Part shown: one piece after another, positions 16,356-27,790 of the stretch | Layout: every line of letters starts with the position of its first letter | Numbering within the stretch: position 1 is the stretch's first letter | Assembly: GCF_003438495.1 (NCBI RefSeq) | Contig: NZ_QSSH01000032.1 | Span: 463 to 28,452, forward strand | Direction: 5' to 3' | DNA length: 27,990 nt | Source of the DNA: Collinsella sp. TF05-9AC | GTDB taxonomy: Bacteria; Actinomycetota; Coriobacteriia; Coriobacteriales; Coriobacteriaceae | Notes under the pieces: generated by a model | Databases searched by the model: none | What the model was told of the DNA's origin: nothing | The model's input: only the letters and a program-made list of their open reading frames with translations | Translations under genes and position numbers: made by a program

Positions 16356-16997
16356 CTACATCATCCCGCCTGCTCCCAGCAGCGGGCCCAATATGGACAG
16401 AAGCAACGCCGGCAAGATGAGCGTGCCGGTGGGAATCAGCAGCTTGACGGGCGCACGCTCAATCTCGCGCTCGACCGCGGCGCGATGAGCCGCACGGATC
16501 TCGCGACTTTGAGCGGCCAACGTCTCGGCAAGTGGGGCACCCAGGGCGAGCGCCTGCCCCACCGTGATGGCAAAGGTCTCGAGCGCTCGCACGTCCAGGT
16601 CGCGCGCGGCGGCCAACAACTCGTCCTCACGCGTGCCCACGCCCACCTGCCACGCCATGCAGGCCCGCTCAAGGCGAAGAGCCAGCACTGACCGGCGGTT
16701 GGCGCAGAAAATCTCAAGCGCCGCATCAAACGAAAGACCGGCCGAAAGGCCCAAGCGCACAACATCGATCATCTCGGACACTTCGCCAAGCGACACTCGC
16801 GCCGGGCCGCCCGCTCCAACCGCGCCCTTCACTCGCGCGGTCAGGGCATCGACCACCGAGCGACCCGCGGCAGCGACCAGCACCGCCTCGCGCTTGCAGG
16901 CCCCTGCGATCTTGCGCGCATCCGCCCGATCCAAACCCGTCGCGACAAATACACTCAGGGCACACAGGCAAGCCACAACTGCAACCAGGGCGCTCAT
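16356..16997 (-). CDS. tadC: Tad pilus inner-membrane platform protein TadC
   Basis: T2SSF-domain platform protein partnering TadB and the TadA ATPase in the cytoplasmic membrane. The 213 residues have an N-terminal membrane helix (ALVAVVACLCALSVFVA). The T2SSF core includes DVVRLGLSAGLSFDAALEIF, TREDELLAAARDLDVRALETF and LGAPLAETLAAQS. Two-part hydrophobic C-termini follow (PTGTLILPALLLSILGPLL). ATG 16997 overlaps the tadB stop (ATGA), which fixes the start; the 46 upstream codons in frame are spurious. It is somewhat shorter than proteobacterial TadC, as is usual for Gram-positive Tad loci. Confidence 0.9.
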   Translation of the reverse strand: MSALVAVVACLCALSVFVATGLDRADARKIAGACKREAVLVAAAGRSVVDALTARVKGAVGAGGPARVSLGEVSEMIDVVRLGLSAGLSFDAALEIFCANRRSVLALRLERACMAWQVGVGTREDELLAAARDLDVRALETFAITVGQALALGAPLAETLAAQSREIRAAHRAAVEREIERAPVKLLIPTGTLILPALLLSILGPLLGAGGMM

Positions 16998-17920
16998 AGC
17001 TCCACCCGCATAATGCGCCGGATAACCACCAGGGCAACGACGTTGAGGGCTAGACCCAGCACCACAGCGCCCGCACCGGCAGGCGTCGCAAGACCGCGAC
17101 GAAAATCTGCCGAAAGCAGCGCCAACACCGCGCACATGCCCGCCGGCATCGCCGCGACCATATGCGCAGACATGCGAGCCTGCGACGTCTTAACATCCAG
17201 GCGGCGCTTGAGCTCAATGCGCTCCCCCACCATGCTCGACGCCTCGGACAGTAAGTCGGCAAGCGGAGCGCCGGTGCGCTGAGACACCTTAAGCGCCAAG
17301 GTCACAAGCGAAAGGCCGGGGGCATCGATGCGCACGAGCAAGTCATCGAGCGCGTCGGTCGCCGAGATGCCGCAATCGATCGCCGCCGCTACCCGCAAAA
17401 ACTCGGTATGTACCGGCTCTTGCGCATGAGCGCCCACAAAGCGCATGCCCTGGGCCAGCGAATGTCCCGAGGCAAGCGACATGGAAAGTGCGGTAAACGC
17501 CTCGGGCATGGCCTCTTCTGCATCGTGTTGCTCGCGCCGGCTCTCAAAGCCATCCCGAGCGGCGCCAACGGCAATCGGAGCAACAAGTCCCAAGGCAAAT
17601 CCGAGGGGCGATAACGACACCATCGTTAGTAAAACGCAGCAGACACCGCTCGATAGCAGCAGAAACGCCAAACGCCCCGAAGCATCTTCAATCACGAGGC
17701 CAAAGCGATGCGCCGGAGCCAGCGATGCCCACGAACGGGCGATCTTTTTCAGCAGATCGTTTTCCACCAGCTCACGCGGCAGCTTCTCTGCCACCGTCTC
17801 GAGCGCCTGACGCGCCAGCTCCGCCGGCGGTACCTGCGGCACACGAGGTTCCGCCCCGCACGCCGTCGCAACAGAAAACCCTGCCAAACCCCCTACGACG
17901 AGGGGCACAGCGACCTCCAT
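16994..17920 (-). CDS. tadB: Tad pilus inner-membrane platform protein TadB
   Basis: Polytopic T2SSF-domain protein of 308 residues. An N-terminal hydrophobic stretch comes first, then a cytoplasmic linker. Two closely spaced membrane helices follow (around residues 84-122). The T2SSF domain contains EAMPEAFTALSMSLASGHSL and QRTGAPLADLLSEASSM, and two C-terminal membrane helices complete it. It forms the platform with TadC through which TadA drives Flp assembly. ATG 17920 has GGAGG seven bases before it and overlaps the 3' end of tadA by 28 bases. The 3' end overlaps tadC by four bases, so these three genes are tightly coupled. Confidence 0.92.
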   Translation of the reverse strand: MEVAVPLVVGGLAGFSVATACGAEPRVPQVPPAELARQALETVAEKLPRELVENDLLKKIARSWASLAPAHRFGLVIEDASGRLAFLLLSSGVCCVLLTMVSLSPLGFALGLVAPIAVGAARDGFESRREQHDAEEAMPEAFTALSMSLASGHSLAQGMRFVGAHAQEPVHTEFLRVAAAIDCGISATDALDDLLVRIDAPGLSLVTLALKVSQRTGAPLADLLSEASSMVGERIELKRRLDVKTSQARMSAHMVAAMPAGMCAVLALLSADFRRGLATPAGAGAVVLGLALNVVALVVIRRIMRVEL

Positions 17921-19221
17921 TCGTCCACCTCCTCTTGTGTGAGCGTCCCCGACCGCAGGCCTTCTGCGATAAACGGCGGCTCGCGGTCAAGCTTCCAGGT
18001 GCGCTCGGCGGCATCGAAAGTCACATAGCGCTCGAGTTCTACGCCGCCCGACGCGGCGCGACGCACCCCCGAATACGAGGAGACGAAACGCCTGCCATCG
18101 GCGTGGCGCTCGGACATCACGATGCCGTCGAGCGCCATGGCAATCTGCTCCTCGATGAGCTCGCTCGGCAGATCGATGCCATAACGTGCAAGCAACGTCA
18201 GACGCACCACGGTCTCCTGTTCTGAACCCGCATGAAGTGTGGTGAGCGACCCATCGTGGCCCGTGTTCATGGCCTGCAACATGTCGCAGCACTCGGCACC
18301 GCGCACCTCGCCCACCACGATGCGGTCGGGGCGCATGCGCAGGGCATTGGTCACCAGGTCGCGGATCGTCACCGCGCCCTCGCCCTCAATTGAAGCCTCG
18401 CGCGCCTCTAGGCGCACCACGTGCGGATGATGCGCAAACTTGAGCTCGGCAGAGTCCTCGATCGTCACGATGCGCTCGCCGGTGGAAATCTCGCATGACA
18501 ACGCGTTGAGCAGGGTGGTCTTACCAGACCCCGTGCCTCCCGCAACCGCCAGGTCCTGTCGCAGCGACACCGCGCACGACAGCAGCTGCGCATACCAAAG
18601 CGGCAGCGACCCCAGCCCCACAAGCTCGTCCAGCGAGCAGATACGGTCCGAGAACTTTCGGATGGTGAGAATCGGTCCGTCAATCGCCACAGGCGGAATC
18701 ACCGCGTTGACGCGATAGCCCGTTTTGAGGCGGGCGTTGACGATGGGGCTGCGCTCGTCGATACGGCGGCCAAGTGGCGAGATGATGCGGTCGATAAGCA
18801 CACGGATCTGTTCATCATCCTCAAACGCATGCTCGATGGGGTGCAAGACGCCGCCGCGTTCAAAGAAAGCCGAGCGGCAGCCGTTGATCATGATCTCGGT
18901 AACGGTGTCGTCCTCGATGAGCGGCTGCAACGGCCCCAGGCCCACCACGTCATCCAAAATCTCGTCGATGATGGTCTCGCGCTCGGTCGTCGCGAGATCG
19001 GTCGGTTCCTCAACATTGAGCGCCGCCTCCACCGCGGGACGCAATTCCGAGCGGGCAAGTGCCGGGTCGATATAGGCGCTGATACGCGCCACTTCGTCGT
19101 AACCCATGCGGTCCATCACGGCGCGCTTGGTGCGTCGTTTCACCGCGCGGCGACGCCCCGCATCTACAGGCGCTGCCCCCGCTGCAGCGCCGGCAGCCTT
19201 AATCCTCGTTTGCAGGCTCAT
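17893..19221 (-). CDS. tadA: Tad pilus assembly ATPase TadA (CpaF)
   Basis: Hexameric VirB11/GspE-family secretion ATPase that powers Flp pilus assembly at the cytoplasmic face. The 442 residues comprise a basic N-terminal region, an N-terminal domain with [20 protein letters not shown] (about 93-112), and the RecA-like core. Core motifs are Walker [10 protein letters not shown] (228-236), Asp box IEDSAEL (254-260), Walker [12 protein letters not shown] (300-310), and His box [15 protein letters not shown] (318-332). All key residues are present, so it should be active. The start overlaps the tadZ stop by four bases (ATGA). Confidence 0.97.
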
Positions 19222-20867
19222 CGCTGATCACCCTCGCGCGACCAGGGAAGGCGGATACGCGGGCGTTCGGTGCGCGTTGCACGGTCGGCGACCATATCGC
19301 TCCAAGGGCCGACGGCGCACCCCAGTTCCACGAGCATCTCGCGCGTGGCCTCGCGCACGCTGGTCGCAAAAGCGCTGGTCTGCCCCACTGCCTCGTCAGC
19401 GCGTCCAAACGCCATGAGCGCGGCGAGATCCTGCCCGCCATCGGCGATATGAATCTTGGAGCTCAACGCACAGGCAATCTCAAAGCGCATGGCGACGTCC
19501 TCGTCTGCCCCGCGCGCACCGAACCGGTTGAACACGGCGCTCATGCGCGTGCGCGGCACACCCACTCGACTTGCCAGTTCAATGACGCGCGACGCCGATG
19601 TCGCGGACGACACCGCCGCATCGCCAACGACCAGGCAGCGGTCGCTCGCCGCCACCGCAGCCGCCACGGCATCACCCCAAAAGACCGAGGTGTCGACAAA
19701 GACCACGTCGGATTCGCGACGCAGAACATCAAGCAGTAGCTCCACCGGACGTGCCATGAGCTCGGCTTGCTCGGGCGCCGCGACGGGACCCCAGAGCGTA
19801 ACGCCCGGCGCCACGCGCATCGATGCGGCTACGATATCTGGCTCGGCGAGCGCGCCCGCCGCCGACGGCTCGATAAGTGCCGCCATATCGCGCGGAGCAT
19901 CGACGCCTAACAAGTCGTAAAGGTTTCCAAACATCAGGTCCAGGTCGAGCACGGCGGCACGCAAGCCCAACAGCGACGATGTGTGTGCCATGGTGGCAAC
20001 GATCGTCGACTTGCCGCAACCGCCCGAACCCGAAATGGCGCAGATGACCGGAGCTCGGTGCGGCGAAGCGGCAGCGTCTGCCGGCGGCATCGGAGGCGGC
20101 GGGGCGGGCGTCGGCGGCAGCGTCCCCGTCTCCCCCGCCGCAACCACACGCTGCGTCCAAGCCGGCATGGCAGCTTGTTCGGTCTGCGAGGCAGGCTCGT
20201 TCTGCACAATCTGCTCATGCTGCATCAGCGACAACTCGCCGCACCCGGCAAAGCCCTCAACTTCGTCGAGTTCATCCGCCAGATTCACGCCGTGCACGTA
20301 TCCCAAATCTACAGCCGGGGAGTCGCCAGCATGCTGCGCCGGCCCTCCAGCGTCATCGTATACAAGGGGGTTCCGGGGGCGCCGACCATGCTCGGCTTCC
20401 GCTTTTCCATAATCATCAACACGCGGGCCTCTTGTAGCGCGAGGCGCCCCGGGTTCCCTATCAACAAAAGCATCGGGCTCAATCGTCATGCGCCGATCGG
20501 AATCAACCGCTCCCTCGCCCGCGCGCCCGTTGCCGCATATACTGTGCGCAGCGATGACCTCGGTCGCCCCTGCGCGAAACAGCCCCTCGATATCCGACGG
20601 ATCGAGTGCTTCTATCAACACGACCACGCGACTCACGCGGCCTTCGGCCGTCAGGCGCGCAACAGTCTTGCGCACGTCTTCGGTATCAAACAGAGACGCC
20701 GCGATGATGGCAGCTCCGCGGCGCGACGGAAACGCCCGCGCCATGGAAACCAGCCCGTCCAGGTCACCCACGCGAAGCACCTGTGCACCCGTATCACGGC
20801 CCTCGACTTCCCGCTGCAACAGCCCGTAATCGCCGCACGCGCAGCACGCAAGCCAGATCGCCTTCAT
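19218..20867 (-). CDS. tadZ: TadZ/CpaE-like localisation ATPase
   Basis: ParA/MinD-superfamily protein that places the Tad machine in the cell. It has 549 residues, long for the family, in three parts. An N-terminal receiver-like domain (to about residue 110, with RVVVLIEALDPSDIEGLFRAG) comes first. A linker of about 160 residues, low-complexity and proline/acid-rich, follows. The C-terminal ATPase starts at VICAISGSGGCGKST (about 275-288) with the Walker B-like VVFVDTS. The deviant Walker A signature lysine (KGGxGKT) is Ser here, as in other atypical TadZ/CpaE proteins, so ATP use may differ. ATG 20867 is preferred; GTG 20870 is one codon earlier. The cpaB stop overlaps it. Confidence 0.9.
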   Translation of the reverse strand: MKAIWLACCACGDYGLLQREVEGRDTGAQVLRVGDLDGLVSMARAFPSRRGAAIIAASLFDTEDVRKTVARLTAEGRVSRVVVLIEALDPSDIEGLFRAGATEVIAAHSICGNGRAGEGAVDSDRRMTIEPDAFVDREPGAPRATRGPRVDDYGKAEAEHGRRPRNPLVYDDAGGPAQHAGDSPAVDLGYVHGVNLADELDEVEGFAGCGELSLMQHEQIVQNEPASQTEQAAMPAWTQRVVAAGETGTLPPTPAPPPPMPPADAAASPHRAPVICAISGSGGCGKSTIVATMAHTSSLLGLRAAVLDLDLMFGNLYDLLGVDAPRDMAALIEPSAAGALAEPDIVAASMRVAPGVTLWGPVAAPEQAELMARPVELLLDVLRRESDVVFVDTSVFWGDAVAAAVAASDRCLVVGDAAVSSATSASRVIELASRVGVPRTRMSAVFNRFGARGADEDVAMRFEIACALSSKIHIADGGQDLAALMAFGRADEAVGQTSAFATSVREATREMLVELGCAVGPWSDMVADRATRTERPRIRLPWSREGDQR

Positions 20868-21526
20868 CACTCGTCGCCTCCACTCTTTTTGCCGCGCGCC
20901 GTGGCGGGAATCGTCAAGCTGACCGTTCCCTTGCCCGAGGCTCCCAGCAGTTCCTTGACGTCTTCGGGGTCAGCCGCCAGCGTCACCCATTCGATCTTGC
21001 CCTCGCGCGTGGCACCGGAATCCTCACTGGTATCGATCACGTACGCACCGCACAGCCGATCGGTTACGCCGTCTTTTTGCACATATACATCCACGTAGCT
21101 GCCCACGCCCGTAGCACCGCCGACCGAGTGCTCGGCATCGACCGCCACCGAAACGGCGACCTTGCCCTTAGGCACCTCGAGCTTGTGGCTCTCGGCCTTG
21201 GTGTAGACATTGCAGATCACGGCGTTTTTGGGAATACGCGAAGTCGTCACGTCGCCGCGCACCTGGCGCAGCTCGGTCGCCGCGTCACGCGGCAACAGGC
21301 TCGTCAGCCATTCCTGGGTTATGACATTGGTCTCATCGAGGGTCTCGCCCACATCGATATCGCGCGCCGCGACGCATACCTCGACGCGATCGCCACCGTA
21401 CTTGGCCAAGGTCTCAGCCTGGACCTGTTCGGCTTGCGAGCGGATCGACGAGCCGTAAACCATACAGAGCAGAGCAGCGAGCACGCCCGCGACCAGACTG
21501 ATGGCGATGCGCTTGCTCTTGTTCAC
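20867..21526 (-). CDS. cpaB: Flp pilus assembly protein CpaB/RcpC (SAF domain)
   Basis: First gene of the Tad operon. The 219 residues have an N-terminal membrane anchor (IAISLVAGVLAALLCMVYG) and an SAF-type domain (VEVCVAARDIDVGETLDETNV, then TTSRIPKNAVICN). A RcpC/CpaB C-terminal region (GSYVDVYVQKDG, GTVSLTIPATA) follows. In diderms CpaB works beside the secretin; in monoderm Tad loci it is thought to aid pilus passage through or anchoring in the cell wall. GTG 21526 has AGAGGAG five bases upstream and is preferred to the in-frame ATG 21541. Upstream is a regulatory region with inverted GCTGACC repeats. Confidence 0.88.
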   Translation of the reverse strand: MNKSKRIAISLVAGVLAALLCMVYGSSIRSQAEQVQAETLAKYGGDRVEVCVAARDIDVGETLDETNVITQEWLTSLLPRDAATELRQVRGDVTTSRIPKNAVICNVYTKAESHKLEVPKGKVAVSVAVDAEHSVGGATGVGSYVDVYVQKDGVTDRLCGAYVIDTSEDSGATREGKIEWVTLAADPEDVKELLGASGKGTVSLTIPATARGKKSGGDE

Positions 21527-21540
21527 GGCCGCTCCTCTCA

Positions 21541-21696
21541 TGGCAGTGCCGGGCGAATGCCCGTACCACCATTGTCTGGGCGGTCAGAGTACAAAGCGGC
21601 GCAATCGCGATCTTGGTTTTCGATGTCAAACCAATCGCTGACCAAAAGCTGACCAGCCCGTCAAGCTCGTGGCAAGGTTTTGGTCAGCACGTCAGC
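21541..21696 (-). promoter_or_regulatory. Tad operon control region with inverted GCTGACC sites
   Basis: The minus strand has a consensus -35-like TTGACA (21628-21623) but no strong -10 seventeen bases on. Farther upstream GCTGACCAAAA (21637-21647) and its exact inverse TTTTGGTCAGC (21678-21688) form an 11-bp inverted repeat. An additional GCTGACCA (21648-21655) and an inverted GTCAGC (21691-21696) are nearby. Four half-sites in 60 bp look like an operator cluster. A small hairpin CGGGC/GCCCG at about 21550-21563 lies in the leader. Confidence 0.45.
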
Positions 21697-23206: not shown

Positions 23207-25888
23207 TTACTCTTTCTCCACAGCGCGCATGATCGCCTTGTAGATCTCCATCAGCGGGATGATCAGGAAGGCAAGGCCCAGCGCGGCGACAACGCCCTTG
23301 AGTTCAAGCGTCACGGGACCAAAGAACATCTCGGCAAGCGTCGGCTGCACGGTAACGATCACCGTCAGCACCAGCGCCAGCGCGGCAGAGGCCCACAGCC
23401 ACTTGTTCTGCTTCTTCATGCTAAACAGCGACGCACGACGGCTGCGCATATTGAAGCAGTGGAAGATCTCGACCATGTTGAGCGTGATGAAGGCCATCAT
23501 CACGCCTTCCTCGTCGGCATTGCCGGCGATCATATCGGCGATGTGGATGTAGCCCATGTCAAAGTACACGCCCACAAAGAAGCTCGCCAGCACCAGCACG
23601 GTGATGATCAGGCCCTGGACCACGCAGTCCAGGCCCATGTTACCGGCAAAGACGCCGTCTTTGGCGTTGCGCGGCTTGCGCTTCATGATGTCGCCCTCGG
23701 CGTCCTCCATACCCAGCGCGAGCGCGGGGAAGCAGTCGGTAACCAGGTTCACCCACAGCAGCTGCACCGGCTGGAAGATGGTAAAGCCGATGAGCGTGGC
23801 AATAAACACCGAGAATACCTCGGCAAGGTTGGCCGAAAGCAGGAACTGGATGACCTTGCGGATGTTGTCGTAGATGCGGCGACCCTCTTCGCAAGCACCG
23901 ATGATGGTGGCGAAGTTGTCGTCGGCGAGCACCATGTCGGCGACGTTCTTGGTGACGTCGGTACCGGTGATACCCATGCCCACGCCGATGTCGGCACGTT
24001 TGATGGACGGGGCGTCGTTGACGCCGTCACCCGTCATGGCCACGATCTGGTCGCGCGACTTCCAGGCCTCGACGATGCGGGTCTTGTGCTCGGGCTGGAC
24101 GCGGGCGTACACGCCGTAGTCCTCGATGTGCGCGTCGAGTTCCTCGTCGCTCATGCGATCGAGGTCGGCACCGGTGATGGCATGGCTGCGATCGGTGACG
24201 ATTCCCAGCTGCTTGGCAATGGCCACGGCGGTGTCGATATGGTCGCCCGTGATCATGACGGTGCGAATACCGGCGTCGTGGGCCTCGCGGATGGCGTCGG
24301 CGACCTCGGGGCGGACAGGGTCAATCATGCCGGACAGGCCGCAGAAGACCAGGTCGTGCTCGAGCGCAGCGGGGCTGCAGTCGCTCGGGACCTCGGTGTA
24401 GGTGCGGCTTGCCAGCGCCAGCACGCGCAGAGCCTCGTCGGCCATGGCCTTGTTGGCGGCCACGAGCTCGGCGCGACGCTCCTCGGTCAGCGGGACGACC
24501 TTTTCGCCCTCGTAGATATGGGTGCACAGGCCGATTACCACGTCGGGCGCGCCCTTGGTGTACTGCTCGTACTCGCCATCCAGGGTCTCGACGACCACGG
24601 ACATCATCTTGCGACCCGAGTCAAACGGGGCCTCGCCCACGCGCGGGTGCTCGGCAGTCAGGCCGGTGAGACCAGCCTTGCCGGCGTCGTTGACGAGCGC
24701 GCACTCGGTCGGCTCGCCCACGGCCTCGCCCAGCTCCTCGTCCCACTGGGCATCGGAGCAAAGGGCCATACCGGCCAGGAACTTTTCCTTAGGCGCAGCG
24801 AGCTCGTGCTTGACGACGGTCATCTTGTTCTGGGTGAGGGTACCGGTCTTGTCGGAGCAAATAGTCTGCGTGCAGCCGAGGGTCTCGACGGCAGAGAGCT
24901 TGCGGATAATCGCCTGGCGCTTGGCCATCTTGGTCACGCCGAGCGACAGCACGATGGTCACGACGGCGACCAGGCCCTCGGGGATGGCAGCGACGGCGAG
25001 CGAGACGGCGACCATAAAGGTGTCGAGCAAGGCAGTCGGATCGGTAAGGACGTTGCCCACGCCGTGGCGGAGGATATCGACGCCAAAGATCACGACGCAG
25101 ATGACGATCACCATAATGGTGAGGATGCGGCTGAGCTCGGCAAGCTTCACCTGCAGCGGCGTAAGCTCTTCCTTGGCCTCGGCCAGGGCGCCGGCGATCT
25201 TGCCCATCTCGGTATCCATGCCGGTACCGACCACGACGGCGCGGCCGCGGCCGTACACCACGGTAGAGCCCATGTAGCACATGTTCTTGCGGTCGCCGAG
25301 CGGCACGTCATCGGTGCCTGCGGCAAGCTCGATCACGTTGGCGTGCTTCTCTACGGGCACGGACTCGCCGGTGAGTGCGGCCTCTTCGATCTTCATCGTG
25401 GCGCTCTCGAGCACGCGGCAGTCGGCCGGGACGGAGTCGCCCGCCTCGAGCATGATCACGTCGCCGGGCACGAGCTCGGCGCTCGGCAGGTGCACGAGCT
25501 TGCCGTCGCGCAGTACCTTGGACTGCGCCGCGCTCATCTCCTGCAGGGCCTCGAGGGCCTCCTCGCTCTTGGCTTCCTGGACCACGCCCAGCACCGAGTT
25601 GACGATAACGACGAACATGATGATGACGACATCGGCAAAGTCGGGCTCGCCCTTGACCATGCCCGTGAGCGCGCTGATGATGGCGGCAACGATCAGCATG
25701 ATGACCATGGGGTCGGCCATCTGCTCAAAGAAACGCTTCCACAGCGGCGTCTTCTCGGCTTCCTCGAGCTTGTTAGGGCCTGTCTTGGCGAGGCGCGACG
25801 ACGCCTCGTCGTTGCTCAGGCCGAGGTTCTCATCGACGCCCTGGTCGCTGAGCACCTCCGCCGCGGCGGACAGGTATTCCTTTTGCAT
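23207..25888 (-). CDS. Calcium-translocating P-type ATPase (P2A/PMCA-like)
   Basis: ATP-driven cation pump, probably Ca2+ export, in the cytoplasmic membrane. The 893 residues start with a cation-ATPase N-terminal domain (NEASSRLAKTGPNKLEEA-like). Two helices and the actuator domain with LTGESVPVEK follow. Helix 4 carries the PEGL motif (AAIPEGLVAVVT), the ion-binding signature of type II pumps. The phosphorylation loop DKTGTLTQNKM has its Asp near residue 345. KGAPDVV is the nucleotide-binding Lys motif and TGDGVNDAPSIK is the hinge. Six C-terminal helices finish the pump. ATG 25888 is preceded by GGAGGGG, which is partly locked in a leader hairpin. PMCA versus SERCA type cannot be settled by eye. 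Confidence 0.93.
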   Translation of the reverse strand: MQKEYLSAAAEVLSDQGVDENLGLSNDEASSRLAKTGPNKLEEAEKTPLWKRFFEQMADPMVIMLIVAAIISALTGMVKGEPDFADVVIIMFVVIVNSVLGVVQEAKSEEALEALQEMSAAQSKVLRDGKLVHLPSAELVPGDVIMLEAGDSVPADCRVLESATMKIEEAALTGESVPVEKHANVIELAAGTDDVPLGDRKNMCYMGSTVVYGRGRAVVVGTGMDTEMGKIAGALAEAKEELTPLQVKLAELSRILTIMVIVICVVIFGVDILRHGVGNVLTDPTALLDTFMVAVSLAVAAIPEGLVAVVTIVLSLGVTKMAKRQAIIRKLSAVETLGCTQTICSDKTGTLTQNKMTVVKHELAAPKEKFLAGMALCSDAQWDEELGEAVGEPTECALVNDAGKAGLTGLTAEHPRVGEAPFDSGRKMMSVVVETLDGEYEQYTKGAPDVVIGLCTHIYEGEKVVPLTEERRAELVAANKAMADEALRVLALASRTYTEVPSDCSPAALEHDLVFCGLSGMIDPVRPEVADAIREAHDAGIRTVMITGDHIDTAVAIAKQLGIVTDRSHAITGADLDRMSDEELDAHIEDYGVYARVQPEHKTRIVEAWKSRDQIVAMTGDGVNDAPSIKRADIGVGMGITGTDVTKNVADMVLADDNFATIIGACEEGRRIYDNIRKVIQFLLSANLAEVFSVFIATLIGFTIFQPVQLLWVNLVTDCFPALALGMEDAEGDIMKRKPRNAKDGVFAGNMGLDCVVQGLIITVLVLASFFVGVYFDMGYIHIADMIAGNADEEGVMMAFITLNMVEIFHCFNMRSRRASLFSMKKQNKWLWASAALALVLTVIVTVQPTLAEMFFGPVTLELKGVVAALGLAFLIIPLMEIYKAIMRAVEKE

Positions 25889-26000
25889 ATAGAGTCCCCT
25901 CCTGGGATTCGGGCCACTCAGCAGATTGATGCCCGATCATAATTCCCAGGAGAAGGGCAAGGGCTCATCAAGGCTGCCGTGCTGAGCGGCAGTTGATAGT
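25889..26000 (-). promoter_or_regulatory. Structured ATPase leader with SD-sequestering hairpin and loop-loop pairing
   Basis: In the predicted 5' leader two hairpins form. H1 (25997-25967) has stem CTGCCG/CGGCAG extended by ATCAA/TTGAT, with 7-base loop CTCAGCA. H2 (25952-25899) has outer stem CTCCTGGGA/TCCCAGGAG, whose second strand is part of the ribosome site, and an inner stem CGGGC/GCCCG. The H2 apical loop contains TGCTGAG, the exact complement of the H1 loop. CATCAA in the same loop also complements TTGATG at the base of H1. This would allow a kissing-loop fold or an alternative 13-bp pairing. Confidence 0.55.
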
Positions 26001-26006
26001 GGAGCT

Positions 26007-26052
26007 ATGGTACCCCAAAGCAGCGCGTCTAGCCAAAACATTCCAATTGGAA
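26007..26052 (-). promoter_or_regulatory. Putative ATPase promoter and upstream palindrome
   Basis: On the minus strand -35 TTGGCT (26036-26031), 18 bases, -10 TACCAT (26012-26007). Initiation about seven bases on would start the RNA right before hairpin H1. A perfect 12-bp palindrome TTCCAATTGGAA (26041-26052) sits just upstream of the -35 and could bind a regulator. Confidence 0.4.
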
Positions 26053-26329: not shown

Positions 26330-27790
26330 ATGTACAAGCGCACCAAGATTGTATGCACCATGGGTCCCGCCTGCGATAGCGACGAGACCATCCGCGAGAT
26401 GATCAAGGCGGGCATGAACGTCGCCCGTTTTAACTTCTCGCACGGCTCCTACGACGAGCACCACGGTCGCATCGAGCGCGTCCGCCGTATTTCCAAGGAG
26501 CTCGGCATGCCCGTCGGCATCCTGCTCGACACCAAGGGCCCCGAGGTCCGCACCGGCCTTTTGGTCGATGGCAAGAAGGTTGCCGTCAAGACCGGCGACA
26601 AGATCGTCGTCACCGCTCAGCCCACGTCCGAGGATTTCCACGGCACCGCTGAGCACATCTCCCTCGACTACCTGGCTCTGCCCTCCGAGGTCGAGAAGGG
26701 CTCCCTCATCCTGATCGATGACGGCCTGGTTGCCCTCGAGGTCGAGTCCGTCGATGGCCAGGACATGACCTGCGTCGTTAAGAACGACGGCCTGATCGGC
26801 GAGCGCAAGGGCGTCAACATGCCCAACGTCAACATCTCGCTGCCCGCCATCACCGAGCGCGATCGTCAGGACATCCTCTTTGGCCTGACCGAGAACATCG
26901 ACTACATCGCCGCTTCCTTCATCCGTGACGGCGAGTCCGTCCGCGGCATCCGCGAGCTTTGCCGCGAGAACGGCGGCGAGCACGTGACGATCTTCCCGAA
27001 GATCGAGTGCGCCCTGGGCGTCGAGAACTTCGACGAGATCCTCGAGGCTTCCGATGGCATCATGGTCGCCCGTGGCGACCTGGGCATCGAGATCAAGCCC
27101 GAGCTCGTTCCCCACATCCAGAAGGAGATCATCGCCAAGTGCAACGCGGCCTACAAGCCCGTCATCACCGCTACGCAGATGCTCGACTCCATGCAGCAGA
27201 ATCCGCGCCCGACGCGCGCCGAGGTTGCCGACGTTGCTAACGCCATCTACGACGGCACCGACGCCGTTATGCTTTCCGGCGAGTCCGCTGCCGGCAAGTA
27301 CCCGGTCGAGGCCGTCAAGATGCAGGCCAGCATCGCTCTCGAGACCGAGAAGTACCTCCCGGCCCACGCTCCGCTCGAGGTTCCGGCCGATGCTCACGGC
27401 ACCCGCGTCGTCAACAACGTTGTGGGTATGTCCGCTGTGAACATGGCTACCACCGTTGGCGCCAAGTGCATCACCGTGCCGACGACCACCGGTCGTACCG
27501 CTCGCCTGATCTCGCACTTCCGTCCCAACATGCCGATCTGCGCGTTCTCCCGCCACGAGTGGGCCGTCCAGCAGATGATCATGTACTGGGGCGTTATCCC
27601 GCACCAGGCCGAGATTACCCAGGGCACCGTCAACGGCACGATCGTCAAGGCGATCGAGACCGCTAAGGAGCTCGGCTACGTCGAGGCCGGCGACCTGACC
27701 GTCGCTACCGCCGGCGATCCCCGCATGAGCGTCCAGCTCGAGGACAAGGTCTCCTCGACCAACGTCGCTTACGTCGCTCAGGTGCGCTAA
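26330..27790 (+). CDS. pyk: Pyruvate kinase
   Basis: Converts phosphoenolpyruvate and ADP to pyruvate and ATP, the last step of glycolysis. The 486 residues start MYKRTKIVCTMGPACDS and include NFSHGSYDEH and LLDTKGPEVRTG in the A domain. The B-domain lid is about residues 70-170. The catalytic KIECALGVENFDEI follows at about residue 225, then MVARGDLGIEI and TATQMLDSM. The C domain is TTTGRTARLISHFRP. There is no extra C-terminal PEP-utiliser domain. ATG 26330 has GGAGGT four bases before it. Codon use is strongly biased to C-ending codons, more so than in neighbouring genes, which fits high expression. It is monocistronic with a strong terminator. Confidence 0.98.
   Translation: MYKRTKIVCTMGPACDSDETIREMIKAGMNVARFNFSHGSYDEHHGRIERVRRISKELGMPVGILLDTKGPEVRTGLLVDGKKVAVKTGDKIVVTAQPTSEDFHGTAEHISLDYLALPSEVEKGSLILIDDGLVALEVESVDGQDMTCVVKNDGLIGERKGVNMPNVNISLPAITERDRQDILFGLTENIDYIAASFIRDGESVRGIRELCRENGGEHVTIFPKIECALGVENFDEILEASDGIMVARGDLGIEIKPELVPHIQKEIIAKCNAAYKPVITATQMLDSMQQNPRPTRAEVADVANAIYDGTDAVMLSGESAAGKYPVEAVKMQASIALETEKYLPAHAPLEVPADAHGTRVVNNVVGMSAVNMATTVGAKCITVPTTTGRTARLISHFRPNMPICAFSRHEWAVQQMIMYWGVIPHQAEITQGTVNGTIVKAIETAKELGYVEAGDLTVATAGDPRMSVQLEDKVSSTNVAYVAQVR

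Follow-up and report, generated by a model that had tools for sequence, protein, structure and literature searches.

A conserved structured leader RNA of Ca2+-type ATPase genes in Collinsella and its relatives: a candidate translational riboswitch

In the genome of Collinsella sp. TF05-9AC, a gene for a P-type ATPase of the Ca2+ type is preceded by a 112-nt leader (positions 25889–26000). The question raised by this locus is whether the leader is a regulatory RNA and how it could act on the pump gene. All positions refer to the analysed stretch of 27,990 nt, called the window in the following; the pump gene and its leader are read from the minus strand. The pump (893 aa, 23207–25888) starts with the ATG at 25888, and the Shine-Dalgarno (SD) sequence AGGAGG is located at 25898–25903; both were read from the sequence. 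Among proteins of solved structure, its closest relatives are Ca2+ ATPases of bacteria, with Listeria lmo0841 among them (E values of 1e-204 to 6e-205), followed by SPCA and SERCA. The best NCBIfam models are of the PMR1 and SERCA types, both scoring under the cut-off. By SERCA numbering, the pump presumably keeps the acidic site-I residues in TM5 and TM8, whereas the aligned lmo0841 does not.

The upstream neighbour is a divergently transcribed pyruvate kinase gene (26330–27790, plus strand). Downstream of the pump follow a gene for an RsgA-like GTPase and Tad/Flp pilus genes (16994–21541, minus strand), with matches to CpaB, MinD/CpaE-like and TadA-like proteins. Ten reading frames of the neighbourhood were compared with NCBIfam. 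Five of them, including the frame opposite pyruvate kinase, had no match at E <= 1e-10, and nothing in these ten frames pointed to another role for the leader.

A preliminary description of the leader had proposed two hairpins, H1 and H2, which are joined by kissing loops. The complementary elements are all present in the letters. H1 consists of CUGCCG (25992–25987), the loop CUCAGCA (25986–25980) and CGGCAG (25979–25974); the partner of its loop, UGCUGAG, lies at 25923–25917; the outer stem of H2 pairs CUCCUGGGA (25944–25952) with UCCCAGGAG (25899–25907); and CATCAA complements TTGATG. H1 plus H2 is also the free fold of the window leader (-47.7 kcal/mol, z = -2.43), and equally low energies were obtained in 6 of 200 shuffles. 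Since dinucleotide shuffling of the leader produces a Watson-Crick helix of at least 9 bp in 8 of 300 cases, the window sequence by itself is only moderately unusual, and it is conservation that makes the case. The window contains the core pattern described below a single time, and none of 100 shuffles contains it. Of 58 related genomes, 35 have a DNA match to the leader, with 100% identity in 11.

Distribution of the leader and linkage to the pump gene

At E <= 0.01, a covariance model of the core (R1; 19 sequences, 12 pairs) gave matches in 165 of 396 class genomes, spread over 36 of 153 genera. Judged by their flanks, four of these matches are chance (G154, G186, G252, G295). The other 161 all belong to two families (f1 and f5), which we take to be Coriobacteriaceae and Atopobiaceae. 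Carriers include a Collinsella sp. (G012:C1), two Olsenella spp. (G039:C12, G047:C10) and a C. aerofaciens strain (G003:C11), the leader of which is identical to that of the window. Scanning genome contigs for the core pattern added Atopobium, Lancefieldella, Parafannyhessea, Tractidigestivibacter and Kribbibacterium among the matches listed (80 of 119). Among 396 genomes of the phylum, 24 gave a match at E <= 0.001, all from the same two families except one with a weak match (G467, E = 9e-4). Hence no spread beyond the two families was found in the 396 phylum genomes or in the core-pattern stretches among those listed (80 of 119), and the exact core pattern was present in none of the viral contigs.

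The linkage to the pump is nearly complete. An ATPase follows in frame after 155 of 156 distinct leaders, its start being located 31–85 nt past the core. The sole leader without an ATPase (L223) is a chance match that resembles L151 from an Asaia MAG; L151 itself and L169, both with titles outside the class, look like chance matches as well. These two and six weak matches without an ATPase start after them (L118, L119, L121, L122, L127, L128) were dropped before the counts. No usable leader was available from L117, which has a degenerate core followed by an ATPase-like start, or from L131 and L208, where the match lies near the end of the stretch. L223 is included in the sets of 138 leaders (pairing and covariation ranking) and excluded from the sets of 137 (SD duplex, promoter box and SD openness).

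Some Collinsella genomes carry a second copy of the RNA, which stands before a further pump gene. G018, for example, has RNAs at C3:599952 and C3:603073 before ATPases at 597239–599917 and 600355–603033. The pump is present without the RNA in two genomes of f5 (G140, G145), and in G005, which has no RNA match, no more of the ATPase was recovered than its C-terminal part. A divergent variant stands before further ATPase copies of Collinsella relatives (L123, L124, L125, L126, L263). Here, P2 pairing is mostly lost, with CTCTAGAGG or CTCAAGAGG preceding the core, and AAUUAAGAUC forms the internal loop; L123, L125 and L126 retain a P1-like pairing. The variant possibly reflects a changed specificity.

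Conserved helices and the core

Comparison of the leaders suggests a nested architecture. In the window the outer helix P1 is formed by GCCGCUCAGCA (25980–25990), which includes the H1 loop, and UGCUGAGUGGC (25913–25923), which includes its proposed kissing partner; covariation and RNAalifold both indicate this helix. The joining segment CGGCAGCC (25972–25979), delimited by column conservation, leads into P2, which pairs UUGAUG (25966–25971) with CAUCAA (25926–25931) and contains the pair that ranks first for covariation across the 138 leaders. Inside P2 lies the core. Its 5' part AGCCCUUG (25958–25965), comprising the bulge AG, the P2b strand CCC and the loop UUG, was assigned from its invariance in 137 leaders, and its 3' part AAUUAUGAUC-GGG (25932–25944), with the internal loop and the other P2b strand, from near-invariance in the same set. 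The core, AGCCCUUGCC…GGAAUUAURAUCGGG, encloses the small hairpin P3 (CCC-UUCUCCU-GGG, 25945–25957), and all of this is located within P1. The near-invariance is partly circular, as the search expressions demanded much of the core, and the invariance of GCCCTTG in 137 leaders likewise arises partly by construction of the search.

P1 comprises 11 bp in the window and is 84.3% paired in an alignment of 59 dereplicated leaders (A3), which were selected for GCA in the joining segment. The proposed loop pairing thus survives comparison among related leaders, with double changes in 10 of the 11 P1 pairs. It does so, however, as part of a longer helix, because the covariation runs beyond the 7-nt loop into the nested P1. 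The stem of H1 is paired to 59.8% in the 59 leaders compared with 59.5% in shuffles, so that the H1 hairpin is not borne out. Since P1 covaries while pairing in the H1 stem stays at the level of shuffles, P1 is best read, from these alignments, as a nested closing helix and not as a kissing loop. For P1, P2, P2b and P3 together, 90.6% of positions in A3 are paired, versus 23–47% when the strands are slid and 83.4% in shuffles. Cells with double changes number 122, versus 20–34 slid and 48.5 shuffled, while pairs with any double change are not in excess (12 versus 11.5 shuffled).

Two further comparisons agree. When spacing was kept constant and no structure was fitted, pairing reached 77–95% at the ten inner positions of P1 in 79 leaders of the GGCA type, and the 12 P1 positions tested average 78%, versus 30–42% when slid. 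An unsupervised ranking of 4186 column pairs in 82 GGCA-type leaders, a set defined by a slightly wider rule, places only P1 or P2 pairs in the top five. In all 138 leaders the first pair belongs to P2, the second to P1 and the third to neither. RNAalifold recovered P1 unaided and drew P2 differently. Judged by comparison, the leader forms a conserved RNA structure in which P1 and P2 are real helices; a covarying domain of this kind in a 5' leader is one of the marks of a riboswitch. The pairs of P2b and P3 never vary in A3 and are beyond the reach of covariation, and we infer these two helices. Extended P3 hairpins with other sequences in L030 and L078 make P3 more plausible. In the joining segment GCA is invariant in A3, as selected, and the preceding G and following CC are conserved to at least 90%. 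The 59 leaders outside the GGCA type tend to have a longer P2, their positions -7 to -9 pairing at 58–63%, compared with 0–1% at -7 and -8 in the GGCA type.

The RNA 5' end had been placed directly before H1, and the arrangement of putative promoters agrees with a start just before the element. In 116 of 137 leaders, versus 11.7 (sd 3.0) in shuffles, a TANNAT box is found 14–44 nt ahead of the core. A -10-like box is found 40–43 nt before the core in 53 of the 82 leaders with P1. Of the remaining 55 leaders, 17 have it 14–16 nt before the core, immediately ahead of P2. This predicts two lengths of one design, with the RNA starting at P1 or, in a subtype lacking P1, at P2. A sigma-70 consensus scan found no promoter. 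The -10-like box TACCAT (26007–26012) is nevertheless a plausible one from its position, and the predicted 5' end lies a few bases downstream, just before P1.

Masking of the SD sequence and a possible switch

The loop and 3' strand of P3 are complementary to the SD sequence, and in the free fold of the window CUCCUGGGA acts as the anti-SD strand while UCCCAGGAG overlaps the SD. The claim that one fold masks the SD is supported for the window by these folding predictions. Across 137 leaders the longest anti-SD run reaches the SD in 131 and is at least 7 nt long in 118. The core-SD duplex has a mean energy of -21.7 kcal/mol, versus -12.2 with shuffled cores and -17.6 with a shuffled pre-SD region, and each leader's own duplex beats the shuffled mean in 136 cases. 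Swapping SD regions between leaders gave -21.0 kcal/mol, the own region being better in 76 of 137, and no covariation of the anti-SD was seen.

SD openness was modelled for transcripts starting 34 nt before the core in the P1 type and 12 nt before it in the rest, with P1 enforced in the P1 type only. When the core is enforced, the mean predicted openness goes from a free-state value of 0.11 to 0.63, with a rise in 120 and a fall in 2 of 137 leaders; with shuffled cores it is already 0.47. Two mutually exclusive folds, as anticipated in the preliminary description, and a change in SD exposure are therefore obtained by calculation only, as is the riboswitch-like property of an expression platform that excludes the conserved domain and masks the SD. 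The roles of the folds have to be reassigned. The longer pairing between the H1 and H2 regions, P1 plus P2, is the conserved structure, whereas H2 is best read, from the folding model, as the competing OFF fold that masks the SD.

Four leaders (L076, L077, L078, L102) keep the core and carry another SD-masking device formed by GAUCGGGC and, immediately upstream of the SD, GCCCGAUC, part of which is also present in the window (UCGGGC, 25936–25931, with GCCCGA, 25914–25909). In L102, L077 and L078 the CUCCU anti-SD loop is gone, and AGCCCGAUC(A) just before the SD complements the core's own GAUCGGGC strand. By its complementarity this arrangement is a second way of coupling the core to the SD.

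We propose that the leader is a riboswitch-like translational ON switch of a new class for a cation-efflux ATPase, with the core stabilised by a putative ligand, and assign this reading a probability of roughly 0.6. Transcription would begin just before P1, whose early closure would present P2 and the core with its internal loop. Stabilisation of the core, presumably by the pumped cation, would hold the anti-SD strand in P3 and leave the SD free. Otherwise the long H2 hairpin would form, in which the loop and 3' strand of P3 are paired to the SD, and translation would be low. Because the free fold lies on average 12 kcal/mol below the core-enforced fold (137 leaders), simple equilibrium switching is disfavoured. 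In the folding model, a window transcript that stops at P1 forms this helix with a probability of 0.94–1.0, but P2 and P2b with only 0.10–0.17, while the full transcript folds as H1 plus H2. We tentatively read this as kinetic control, in which the core would have to be trapped in a stable form ahead of SD synthesis. We infer that a ligand exists, what it may be and in which direction it would act in cells. As to its identity, our guess is Ca2+ first and Mn2+ second. A natural Ca2+-sensing riboswitch, in which a compact pocket UUG / AAUUAURAUC binds Ca2+ during transcription, the anti-SD is folded away and the Ca2+ efflux ATPase is switched ON, is a tentative idea that we consider doubtful.

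The same two folds could also be chosen between by an RNA-binding protein for which the core is the site. Such a site would fit equally well with a short internal loop that hardly varies and stands before one type of gene in two families, and retention of the core sequence while the SD-masking device changes is compatible with a protein or a ligand; we regard a protein site as unlikely. If the stabilised core instead offered its CUCCU loop to the SD in a loop-SD pseudoknot, the pump would be turned OFF. The anti-SD does sit in the P3 loop, but in many leaders P3 reads CCCC-UCCU-GGGG, with little space in a loop of 4 nt, and since the GGG of P3 takes part in the anti-SD run, P3 would then have to open. 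Enforced cores moreover expose the SD in nested-fold calculations, which cannot represent a pseudoknot. This reverse direction is quite improbable.

Even less credit is given to an SD hairpin that, without any ligand, sets a translation level that is fixed or depends on temperature or ionic strength: the free fold is strongly OFF, but a simple SD hairpin leaves the conserved P1 and P2 and the unpaired core letters unexplained. The kissing-loop model agrees with the free fold of the window and with the 7-bp loop complement, yet the shuffle-level H1 stem and the covariation outside the loop leave it a very slim chance. A conserved leader peptide might start at an AUG inside P2, where the window reads AUG AGC CCU UGC. 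Among 137 leaders, however, this triplet reads GTG in 56 and ATG in 39, and 42 have a different one, which is what pairing within P2 would lead one to expect; the core lengths are spread over all three frames (91, 24 and 22). With the triplet variable and the frame not kept, the peptide was rejected as barely conceivable.

Relation to known RNAs and significance

The claim that a conserved leader RNA absent from Rfam precedes the Ca2+-type ATPase gene holds. A scan of the leader with Rfam 15 (4227 families) gave no match at gathering thresholds, and at E <= 10 the region 25870–26050 gave one meaningless match (E = 7.3, other strand), so that membership of any Rfam 15 family was rejected. The leader was thus unmatched by the M-box, NiCo, Na+ and Li+ riboswitches and by Collinsella-1 (RF01700), models of which are part of the library. 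A scan of 11 related ATPase loci returned a tRNA, two matches to microRNA models, a weak yybP-like match in L270 and nothing else.

In translational ON riboswitches, the aptamer domain overlaps the anti-SD strand and an alternative hairpin hides the SD. The window RNA resembles them in its aptamer-like domain overlapping the anti-SD and its SD-hiding hairpin, but its core is unlike any Rfam family, and it was found before one gene type in two families. The yybP-ykoY Mn2+ riboswitch can precede P-type ATPases and, like the window RNA, is a leader of metal-export genes; its model (RF00080), however, matched neither the leader region 25870–26050 at E <= 10 nor the window at the gathering score. 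Sub-threshold matches to RF00080 occur in 8 of 197 class genomes, in families f2, f12 and f20 and in none of f1 or f5. In other families of the class such yybP-ykoY-like RNAs stand before genes (L248, L249, L251–L253, L255) that we take from their sequences to be UPF0016-like and MntP-like. Very weak matches (22–23 bits, cut-off 45) in L254 and L256 lie directly before P-type ATPases that are 41–45% identical to the pump of the window.

The Na+ and Li+ riboswitch classes (PMC9337991, PMC9646797) share with the window RNA that they are ion-sensing, or putatively so, and precede cation-transporter genes, but these genes are of another family, and the leader has no Rfam match. Collinsella-1 (RF01700), named in PMC2864571, is likewise a structured RNA from Collinsella relatives and was classed there as probably not cis-regulatory; its model does not match the leader. 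Literature searches on Collinsella, Coriobacteriales, Olsenella/Atopobium and P-type ATPase riboswitches found no report of the window RNA. The main text of PMC11109978 and PMC8632094 does not mention Collinsella, Coriobacteri- or Eggerthella. PMC8040213 lists many human-microbiome RNA candidates in its supplements, and an unnamed entry for the window RNA may be among them.

To our knowledge, ion-sensing RNAs are few, and we are not aware of a natural Ca2+ riboswitch that has been validated. A phrase search of an open-access library found none either, and a natural Ca2+ riboswitch would, if true, be new. The core is a small candidate aptamer that can be tested directly, and a seed alignment is supplied for this family missing from Rfam 15. 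If the proposed switch is true, it would show how host-associated anaerobes, namely Collinsella, Olsenella and Atopobium relatives, control cation export.
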